Shown here in pieces: positions 25,213 through 35,133 of a stretch of DNA of 35,133 nt (position 1 is its first letter; the number at the start of each line of letters is the position of its first letter). Location: contig JACDED010000032.1 in the NCBI GenBank assembly GCA_013816615.1, positions 1 through 35,133 of the forward strand. Reading direction: 5' to 3'. The position numbers and the translations under genes were made by a program. This DNA is from Bacteroidota bacterium (GTDB lineage Bacteria; Bacteroidota; Bacteroidia; B-17B0; Aurantibacillaceae). The notes under the pieces were generated by a model. The model had not been told where the DNA came from. It searched no databases and saw nothing but the letters and a program-made list of their open reading frames with translations.

Positions 25213-25246
25213 AAAAAACCCTTTCATTTTTATGAAAGGGTTTTTT
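25213..25246 (+). terminator. Rho-independent terminator of the efflux operon
   Basis: AAAAAACCCTTTCAT (25213-25227) pairs perfectly over 15 bp with ATGAAAGGGTTTTTT (25232-25246) around a 4-base loop, four bases after the pump's stop. The run of T and of A on either side would allow action in both directions. Confidence 0.92.
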
Positions 25247-30911: not shown

Positions 30912-31596
30912 GTTGTGCTTTAGCGTAATCTTCTGGAATACCAATATCTATAAAATAACCTTCAAATTCAAAGCCTTTTATTTGGATAGCTTGTAATTCT
31001 TTCTCAAAAAAATCTTTTTCAATCGAAAAATTTTTATTGGAAGGTGTTGACTCTAAATATACTTTTTTGTCTAAAATATATACTCCCCCATTTATTATAC
31101 CTTCTTTTAAAAAGCCTGATTTTTCTTTAAAAGAAGTTATTCTGTGCTCATTATTCTTTTCAATGGTACCGTACCTTTCGGCATTAGGTACTTTTCTTAA
31201 CGCTAACGAGATCTCAGAATTGTTATTTGAATGAAGCTTGTAAAATTCAGAAAGATCAACATCAAAAAAAGAATCACCGTTTAAAACAAATGCTTTTTCT
31301 TCTTTGCATATTTTTAAAGCTAAGCGAATACCACCGCCCGTACCTAAGGGTTCTTTTTCAATAACGTAATCAATCTCAATTCCGTTAAAATGGGCGCCAT
31401 AAAAATCTTTTATTTTTTCAGGTAAATAACCTAACGAAAGGATCACTTTTTTAATACCATAATGCTTTAAATAGTTTAACTGGTAATTTAAAAACGGTTG
31501 TCCGTCAACAGGTGCCATCGGTTTAGGCAGATCGCTCACTACCGTTTGCAAACGTGTACCAAAGCCCCCGGCCAGTATGATAGCAGTTGTTATCAT
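30883..31596 (-). CDS. Sugar nucleotidyltransferase, HddC-like
   Basis: A 237-residue nucleotidyltransferase that would activate a sugar 1-phosphate, most likely D-glycero-D-manno-heptose 1-phosphate with GTP as in HddC. It has the nucleotide-binding opening LAGGFGTRL (8-16) with the catalytic K25 region (DLPKPMAPV), a GTGGGIRLAL loop, and FVLNGDSFFDVD with the metal-binding Asp. The C-terminus is short, without a hexapeptide-repeat acyltransferase, as in HddC/RfbA-type enzymes. GTP versus CTP/UTP and heptose versus another sugar cannot be told from sequence; heptose is inferred from gmhA and gmhB beside it. Its ATG overlaps the preceding stop by one base (TAATG). Confidence 0.85.
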   Translation of the reverse strand: MITTAIILAGGFGTRLQTVVSDLPKPMAPVDGQPFLNYQLNYLKHYGIKKVILSLGYLPEKIKDFYGAHFNGIEIDYVIEKEPLGTGGGIRLALKICKEEKAFVLNGDSFFDVDLSEFYKLHSNNNSEISLALRKVPNAERYGTIEKNNEHRITSFKEKSGFLKEGIINGGVYILDKKVYLESTPSNKNFSIEKDFFEKELQAIQIKGFEFEGYFIDIGIPEDYAKAQHDFKGFKYK

Positions 31597-33587
31597 TAAA
31601 TTCCAAAACCAATTATGGTTACATCATCTATTTGTTCGAGGGTTCCTTTCCAGTTTACAAATGTTTCGCTTAATGTAAAACTTTGTTGTTCGAAAGGCAT
31701 ATCGTGTGTTCTTAAAAGCAGCTCTTCAAGTTGTTTTAGTTTGAATTTTTTTCCTTTTGGTCCACCAAACTGATCTGCAAAGCCATCGGTAAATAAAAAA
31801 TATTTTTCACCTGGTTTTGGTTCCAGTTCGTGATTTGTAAAAACAGTTTGCGCTTCTTCATTAGAGCCACTTACGCCCCAACGATCGGCATGGTATTCTT
31901 TTAATCCATCTTTATTGATCTGGATCATATTATTTTTAGCGCCAGAGTAATATAATTTTTGGGTGTCGGTATTTAAAATACAAATGCTCATATCCACGCC
32001 ATCGTTTATTTTAATCGCATGAGATTGCAAATTGGTTTTAAATTGTTTACACAACTCCGTTAAAACACCTGCTGGATTTGCTCTGTAGTTTCCTGTTGAA
32101 ATAATGTTTTTTATATTAGAGTAGGCAAATACACTTAATAAGGCGCCCGGCACGCCATGGCCTGTACAATCAATAACAGCAATGTAAATAGTGTTAGCTA
32201 CTTTTTCAACAAAATAAAAATCACCACTCACAATATCTTTTGGTCTGAAAAATATTAACGATTCGTTTAAAGTCGATTTTACTTTTACCGTAGAAGGAAT
32301 AATTGCCTGTTGAATGTGTTTTGAGTAATTGATGCTATCTGTAATATCTTTATTTTTTTCTTCAATGATCGATTTTTGTTTTTCTATTTCTTCATTCTTG
32401 TTGGTCAATAAAACATTCGCTTTTTTCTTTTCGCTGAATTGCTTATACACAAAGAATAATAGAATTAAAAAGATAACCATTGCGCCAGCAAAAACATAAA
32501 CAAGTTTGCCGCGTTGCGAAGATTGGATCTGTGATTTTTCTAATTCAAGATTTTTTAATTTAAGTTGTTGTTCTTTTTTCTCCGATTCGTATTTTGATTC
32601 TGCCTCTGTAAATGCCTTATTACGTTCGATATTTAAAACTGAGTCGTTATATTGTGTGTATGTTTTGTAATACTTAAGAGCTTCTGAGGGTTTATTTTGT
32701 AATTCCATTAACTCACTTAAAGCCCTTGCGTTGGTTAAAATATTAGCATAGGCATTGCGTTTAAAGTTTATGGCAATAGCTTCTTTATAATAATCAGTAG
32801 CACTTGCGTATTTTTTTCTTTGAAGATCAATAGCGCCCATATTTGCAAGAGCAGAGGCAAGGCCATAATCATCCTCTGTTTCTCTAAAAACAGGTATTAC
32901 ACTTAGGTAAGTTTTTTCAGCTTCTACATAATTAGAATCTCTAAAATAAGTTTCACCGATCATCGAAACGGCCATAGCCGCATAGTTTAGAATATTTTGT
33001 TTTCTAAAGCTTGCTTCTGCTTTTCTAAAATAACTTATGGCTTCTGTACTTTTACCTTGCTCTGTTAAAATACTGCCAATACCAAATGAAGTAACGGCCA
33101 CCATATTTTCATTTACCGGTTCTTGGTTGGCAATGTCGTACGCTTTTAAATAATATTCGTACGCTTTATCATTATTTTTTATTCCGAGATAAGCGTTGCC
33201 AATAGAGTTAAGTACATTAGAAAGGCCATATTTATTTTTTAATTTTTCAAAAAGCTCAGCGGCGCTAATAAAATTCTTTATCGCAATATCATATTTGCCA
33301 ATTGTGTTTTGTGCGCTGCCCATATTTGCATACGATTGCGCAAGGCCTTGTTCGTATTTAATGCGTTTAGCTATTTTAAAAGCGCTATCGGCAAGTATCA
33401 ATGCGCTGTCGGGACTATTGCCAACCATCATACGCGCAAGCTTACAAAGCGTTAATACTTTTAAGGTATCGTGTGAGCTGCGTATTTTTTTATTTATGCT
33501 ATCCCTTTTTCCTGCCGAAACCTGTGCAGGAGCAACAAACGCTGCGATAAGAAGAAAGAAAATAAAAAATTTTAAGCGGCTAAACAT
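31596..33587 (-). CDS. TPR-containing SpoIIE (PP2C-type) protein phosphatase
   Basis: A 663-residue membrane signalling protein. A signal peptide (~1-23, ending APAQ) leads to about seven TPR repeats (~40-310) that would lie in the periplasm. A coiled coil comes next, then one transmembrane helix (361-381) and another coiled coil (~385-415). The cytoplasmic PP2C/SpoIIE domain (~420-663) has metal-binding Asp in PKDIVSGDFYF (D451, D456), DCTGHGVPGA (D473), FTDGFADQ and DDVTIIGF. It likely dephosphorylates an anti-sigma-factor antagonist in response to an outside signal; the target is not in the window. Its start is three bases after gmhA and its stop overlaps the hddC-like start, so it is translated with the heptose genes. 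Confidence 0.93.
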   Translation of the reverse strand: MFSRLKFFIFFLLIAAFVAPAQVSAGKRDSINKKIRSSHDTLKVLTLCKLARMMVGNSPDSALILADSAFKIAKRIKYEQGLAQSYANMGSAQNTIGKYDIAIKNFISAAELFEKLKNKYGLSNVLNSIGNAYLGIKNNDKAYEYYLKAYDIANQEPVNENMVAVTSFGIGSILTEQGKSTEAISYFRKAEASFRKQNILNYAAMAVSMIGETYFRDSNYVEAEKTYLSVIPVFRETEDDYGLASALANMGAIDLQRKKYASATDYYKEAIAINFKRNAYANILTNARALSELMELQNKPSEALKYYKTYTQYNDSVLNIERNKAFTEAESKYESEKKEQQLKLKNLELEKSQIQSSQRGKLVYVFAGAMVIFLILLFFVYKQFSEKKKANVLLTNKNEEIEKQKSIIEEKNKDITDSINYSKHIQQAIIPSTVKVKSTLNESLIFFRPKDIVSGDFYFVEKVANTIYIAVIDCTGHGVPGALLSVFAYSNIKNIISTGNYRANPAGVLTELCKQFKTNLQSHAIKINDGVDMSICILNTDTQKLYYSGAKNNMIQINKDGLKEYHADRWGVSGSNEEAQTVFTNHELEPKPGEKYFLFTDGFADQFGGPKGKKFKLKQLEELLLRTHDMPFEQQSFTLSETFVNWKGTLEQIDDVTIIGFGI

Positions 33588-34983: not shown

Positions 34984-35042
34984 GCGTAGGTTTTTTAACC
35001 ACATAGGCACATAGAATTTTCAGATCTTATACCAAATTCATA

Positions 35043-35101
35043 TATAATATAGTCCAATTTTGCTTATTTGATTTTATTTGCTATATTTGGACTATATTAT
35101 A
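35043..35101. promoter_or_regulatory. Perfect 15-bp inverted repeat flanking a promoter (likely operator)
   Basis: TATAATATAGTCCAA (35043-35057) and TTGGACTATATTATA (35087-35101) are exact inverted copies 29 bases apart. Between and over them lies a promoter: TTTG at 35059-35062, 19 bases, TATATTTG at 35082-35089. The right arm overlaps the end of the -7 element and the expected transcript start. This is the geometry of an autoregulated operator; a dimer or looping pair on the arms would shut the promoter. Confidence 0.7.
35059..35089 (+). promoter_or_regulatory. Consensus Bacteroidetes promoter for the gene at the right edge
   Basis: TTTG-N19-TATATTTG matches both boxes and the spacing of the Bacteroidetes vegetative promoter exactly. 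Transcription would begin near 35096, within the right arm of the inverted repeat and about seven bases before the first ATG. Confidence 0.75.
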
Positions 35102-35102
35102 A

Positions 35103-35133
35103 ATGGATATTATGGCTTTACCAAAAAAAATCT
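35103..35133 (+). CDS. Start of an unidentified gene, cut by the window edge
   Basis: An open frame begins ATG at 35103 and reads MDIMALPKKI before the window ends; a second in-frame ATG at 35112 would give MALPKKI. The perfect promoter just upstream supports a real start. Too little is present to identify it. The repeat-flanked promoter suggests an autoregulated gene such as a regulator or an antitoxin, which is conjecture. Confidence 0.5.
   Translation, partial: MDIMALPKKI

Follow-up and report, generated by a model that had tools for sequence, protein, structure and literature searches.

The P element of Drosophila has a transposase site that overlaps its promoter, internal inverted repeats and repression by its transposase, and IS10 and IS50 form hairpins in transcripts that read through into them. 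Target duplication in the IS630 family is a plain 2-bp TA. The nearest worked example for the locus described here is IS1. According to an excerpt of PMC12428005, IS1 has a promoter that overlaps its left repeat and is repressed by InsA, the DNA-binding part produced when no frameshift takes place; InsA also acts as a competitor of the transposase. Members of the IS630 family make use of frameshifting or slippage, as stated in a portion of PMC5009743.

We examined the right end of a stretch of 35,133 bases (the window), which is one whole contig with nothing to its right. A preliminary description had noted there an inverted repeat around a promoter and proposed that the gene behind it encodes an autoregulated regulator or a toxin-antitoxin module. 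Our analysis places at this position the left end of an insertion sequence. As in IS1, its promoter overlaps the left repeat, its first frame would encode the DNA-binding part and a poly-A run would serve a -1 shift to the full transposase; it differs from IS1 in transposase family and in having the promoter between the end and an extra internal copy, and repression is proposed here by analogy. With the P element it shares a site over the promoter, internal inverted repeats and (as we propose) repression, but the P element is eukaryotic and has another enzyme and another repeat layout. Incoming transcripts could, as in IS10 and IS50, fold a repeat close to the left end over the start of translation; in the present element, however, the second arm is copied from the terminal repeat itself and lies on the promoter. 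The likeness to the IS630 family extends to transposases of relatives that match NF033545 and DDE_3, to terminal inverted repeats and to probable frameshifting; the differences are the third, inverted and tipless repeat copy over the promoter and flanks that look like a 3-bp TWA duplication rather than 2-bp TA.

A multicopy insertion sequence at the end of the contig

The features of the locus are as follows.

35027..35029, no strand: TTA target triplet (TWA; present at 19/19 left ends, with flanks otherwise unrelated)
35030..35133, plus strand: left end of the IS630-family element, cut by the contig end (the common sequence of 19 copies begins TACCAAATTC)
35030..35057, plus strand: left terminal inverted repeat, with TACCAAATTC as tip and TAGTCCAA as inner core (its inner part forms the left arm)
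35059..35062, plus strand: -33 promoter element TTTG, adjoining the left core
35082..35089, plus strand: -7 promoter element TATATTTG, read in the window sequence
35087..35108, minus strand: third copy of the inner terminal repeat, inverted and tipless, a proposed operator (conserved in 36/43 distinct left ends)
35112..35133, plus strand: opening of the transposase frame, interrupted by the end of the window (other copies read on as MALPKKIYVKESIK)

The perfect 15-bp inverted repeat that had been described is present: its arms, TATAATATAGTCCAA (35043-35057) and TTGGACTATATTATA (35087-35101), are fully complementary with 29 nt between them, the distance of 44 bp between arm centres is correct, and the arms extend to 22 nt (35036-35057 and 35087-35108) at 91% complementarity. 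The reported consensus promoter was also confirmed as TTTG, N19 and TATATTTG, as was the overlap of the right arm with its end, since the TTG of the -7 box is common to both and the arm covers the probable transcript start. TAnnTTTG is a promoter motif of Bacteroidetes in an excerpt of PMC10309648. Among the 43 distinct left ends compared below, it occurs in 30 and the fuller TTG-N18..20-TAnnTTTG in 25. One other perfect 15-bp repeat with a spacer of up to 60 was found in the window, at 25213, and the 10-mer alone is not enriched there (4 matches when one mismatch is allowed, against an expectation of 3.2). The 59-nt unit, folded as RNA, reaches -19.0 kcal/mol (z -6.8), with 0/200 shuffles as good.

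A search of the host genome for pairs of the arms (gap of 15-40 nt), which the preliminary description had recommended, returned 19 identical occurrences of the 49-bp unit, each about 110 bases or less from a contig end. The 19 left flanks, located without use of TWA, are unrelated up to this triplet and identical from TWA followed by TACCAAATTC onward. A search with the element tip identified 21 further contig ends that read TWA followed by TACCAAATTCAGTTATTAAGTAGTCCAAATT inward, where TWA is present by construction because the search pattern contained it; these right ends bear the counterpart terminal repeat, TACCAAATTCAGTTATTAAGTAGTCCAA. The element has terminal inverted repeats at both ends, the 19 left and 21 right ends sharing TACCAAATTCA and TAGTCCAA. 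Because these left and right ends lie at contig ends, the contigs break at a repeated element, and the inner part of this element's terminal repeat forms the left arm. The arms do resemble binding sites, as had been suggested, but the left one belongs to the end of a mobile element. The element is multicopy, with about 20 copies in the host, and the recurrence of identical left ends in unrelated flanks marks it as mobile, a property read from sequence. Its identity explains why the window contig stops where it does. Since the break falls inside the element, the gene interrupted there belongs to the element itself; its frame, translated from the sequence of other copies, opens MALPKKIYVKESIK, and a second in-frame ATG lies at 35103. 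About 40 contig ends of the host's 246 contigs are explained by this one element.

The element is an IS630-family insertion sequence of Bacteroidota as identified through its relatives, whose transposases carry the family call because only the ends of the host's own element are assembled. The second frames of relatives L099 and L100 match NF033545 at 123 and 115 bits (cut-off 100) and DDE_3 at 78 and 68 bits (cut-off 28.6), and their first frames match NF033545 below the cut-off. A complete relative in genome G009 has two frames, the second with DDE_3 and NF033545 above their cut-offs and the first with a match to the N-terminal part of NF033545 below it. The host's right end encodes a 35-residue C-terminal stretch ending NNLIWTT, which by eye resembles the EEIWTI of the relative. 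The transposase interior (DDE_3 and first frame) was not found in the host's assembled contigs, and a high-copy internal contig was probably lost in assembly or binning. An exact-pattern scan of genome contigs gave 0 matches.

DNA matches occur in 5/40 genomes of the genus, the host being one of the five; G008 has 6 and G009 has 9, the longer ones at 75-79% identity. A phylum-wide scan of 395 genomes gave one with a match at 1e-30, and the searches at family and order level covered one and the same set of 87 genomes. When first frames were aligned and searched against the genome collection, 53 loci were recovered, which from their titles we take to be from Bacteroidota, except for one from Ignavibacteria and one from an unnamed bacterium; truncated or degenerate loci in the searches for relatives were left unparsed. 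No match was found in a DNA search of plasmids and no confirmed match in viral contigs, and tblastn against plasmids gave 10 records, all cyanobacterial and below 60% identity. The 3-bp flanks agree on both sides in 19 of the 25 relative loci with both ends and disagree in six, in a comparison in which two pairs are probably the same insertion seen twice.

The frame layout is known from the loci of relatives. Three complete copies that were examined closely show a -1 change of frame at TTTTAAAAAAA, and a script identified an A-run followed by an open -1 frame in 25/42 loci, some loci being broken or cut. This suggests that the first frame yields a DNA-binding protein and that the catalytic domain, in the -1 frame after the A-run, is reached by frameshifting. 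The predicted structure of the first-frame protein is all helical (mean pLDDT 80, pTM 0.51) and weakly matches paired domains and the parts of Tc3, Mos1 and Hsmar1 that bind DNA. These matches have Z 5-6, a level that unrelated rows also reach and that is too low to establish a shared fold. The best hit of a PDB sequence search had an E of 0.083, and Foldseek gave nothing at E 0.001 or better. Four Flavobacterium copies (L140, L143, L144 and L145) have AAAAAGA in place of A7 about 480 nt after the start codon, and their first frame still ends at 171 aa.

Conservation and placement of the third repeat copy

In the window's element the third copy overlies the -7 box, the probable transcript start and the leader. 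We parsed 49 left ends, of which 43 are distinct between the cores (L132, L141 and L159 were dropped because the left flank was too short); these are 43 distinct strings and not 43 independent cases, as L117, L119 and L122 come from one genome and L105, L107 and L112 from another, probably together with L151. An inverted third core with at least 6/7 positions matching and a gap of 28-31 bp from the left core is present in 36/43 left ends, exact in 31, and in 36/39 of the left ends recognisable by score; single-base shuffles reached this level in 105/7800 trials (1.3%). Conservation of the arms in relatives, on which the preliminary description had made its interpretation depend, is therefore widespread.

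The placement of the copy is equally regular. Of the 36 left ends that bear it, 35 have 14-20 nt between its end and the start codon, and 28 contain TAnnTTTG. Among the 22 elements with both ends readable, an exact inverted core lies in the left interior of 19 and in the right interior (60 nt) of none, and direct copies of the core were found in 0/22 at either end.

The third copy resembles both ends of the element in which it lies. For the three-site comparison, L133, L156, L158, L160, L161, L167, L176 and repeats were excluded and 36 elements kept, 21 of them with both ends. In these 21 the outer 12 nt of the third copy score 7.90 against the element's own left end and 6.32 against those of other elements, and 8.19 against its own right end and 6.99 against others, values reached in 0/2000 shuffles in either case, with the provisos that the shuffles ignore relatedness and that the cores were located by likeness to the consensus. 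For the inner 7 nt the likeness within an element does not stand out. The tip is absent from the third copy, which matches 2.06 of its 6 positions; the figure is 5.92 for the left end and 1.65 for neighbouring offsets. This pattern suggests that the third copy is the inner recognition part of the repeat without the outermost part, where cutting would occur.

Where the right end is well scored (20 elements), the third core is identical to the right core in 17 cases, to the left core in 16 and to both in 15. A difference between left and third cores is seen in 14/36 elements, among them L143 and L145, whose third core matches neither end. In a clade of 10 rows with the core AGACCAA, six have a well-scored right end, and in these the switched base is A at each of the three sites; the lower-scoring right end of another member, L152, reads AGGCCAA. 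Covariation of the three sites is suggestive only, because the core switch traces mostly to this one clade, which is essentially one clade-level event, and a test of independent pairs had only 2 pairs and no power. In a literature search that covered material outside subscription journals and ISfinder, no title or opening lines described this arrangement.

Possible functions of the third copy

The reading that we favour, and regard as probable on the pattern of sites and frames, is that the third copy is an operator through which the element's promoter is repressed by its own product, either the transposase or the DNA-binding first frame. The transposase and a more abundant DNA-binding protein, made when no frameshift occurs at the A-run, would bind the left end, the right end and the third copy. 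Protein on the third copy would block RNA polymerase, proteins on the left end and the third copy together would cover both the -33 and -7 promoter elements, and the missing tip would prevent cutting at the third copy. More product would then lead to less new product. Protein binding, repression and frameshifting are the steps that we infer in this scheme. Autoregulation by the product of the gene behind the promoter, as put forward in the preliminary description, is therefore still the best reading, but the gene encodes an IS630-family transposase and not a host regulator. Looping between proteins on one DNA face, which had also been proposed from the arm spacing, is not supported, as the gap between cores varies from 28 to 31 bp among relatives, which speaks against exact helical phasing; promoter geometry can account for the spacing instead.

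The main rival to the operator, with which it may coexist, is an RNA hairpin that acts against read-through. Incoming transcripts would contain both arms, and the long stem formed by these would conceal the start of translation; native transcripts would begin in the right arm without the left arm, so that only these are translated, and the inverted copy would be kept for pairing. A host gene of the PF04029 family (2-phosphosulpholactate phosphatase) on the same strand ends 46 bp upstream of the element, and a scan for a terminator-like site between the two found none, so read-through into the element is plausible and a hairpin could matter. The element end folds at -26.3 kcal/mol (z -4.7; 0/200 shuffles as good), 25/36 relatives have 8 or more left-to-third pairs in their best fold, the third copy is always inverted, and in the host's element it matches the left end at 11/12 outer positions and the right end at 8/12. 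However, any inverted copy folds, so that the fold alone is no independent evidence, and across the family the third copy is as like the right end, with which it could not pair in this way, as it is like the left. The differences between left and third cores in the 14 elements noted above also count against pairing, and in 10/36 the left core pairs with a nearer partner. We therefore consider the hairpin unlikely as the main function, while giving it more weight than any other rival to the operator.

An architectural role, in which the third copy would give the left end a second transposase site for assembling the complex or for distinguishing left from right, seems improbable to us. Extra internal sites occur in other transposons, and both the absence of the tip and the restriction to the left end would suit such a role, but the position of the copy is tied to the promoter, through TAnnTTTG and the short, narrow distance to the start codon. 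An operator of a host regulator or toxin-antitoxin operon, the original suggestion for this operator-like repeat on a promoter, is almost certainly wrong, as all 19 copies near contig ends precede a transposase frame start and no regulator gene is present.

With these results a previously unexplained operator becomes a recognisable part of a mobile element. If the operator reading is true, a compact transposon limits itself through a cut-proof copy of its own end placed on its own promoter. The design would be open to testing in Flavobacterium and to comparison with IS1, and a search for inverted, tipless end copies over transposase promoters could be applied to other insertion sequences.

Terminator-like hairpins in the promoter spacer of relatives

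Many relatives show a further pairing of the left core, with a short adjoining copy that is followed by a T-run, as in L143, where ACCAATT, a loop and AATTGGT precede the T-run. This hairpin sits between the left core and the -7 box in L143, L150, L142 and others, and it beats dinucleotide shuffles at 0.05 in 17/43 left ends, 14 of which have a T-run of at least 5. From its sequence it looks like an intrinsic terminator inside the promoter spacer. Lying between -33 and -7, it would stop incoming transcription and spare the native transcript. The pairing base has changed along with the left core in 5/10 rows of the AGACCAA clade. In Flavobacterium L143 and L144, the left core and its partner differ together from those of L140 and L150, and the third copy and right end keep the older base. 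We suggest, as a tentative proposal about which we are more doubtful than confident, that this IS630 lineage of Bacteroidota packs several controls into about 85 bp through reuse of its terminal repeat, namely a tipless operator copy and, in many members, a terminator-like hairpin in the spacer. The same stretch of the window's copy, from left core to T-run, folds at -0.8 kcal/mol (z +0.4), and the scan found no such hairpin there.

Elsewhere in the window, a minus-strand gene at 31596-33587 joins TPR repeats to a SpoIIE-type phosphatase domain, and beside it lie a SIS-domain gene and a nucleotidyltransferase gene.
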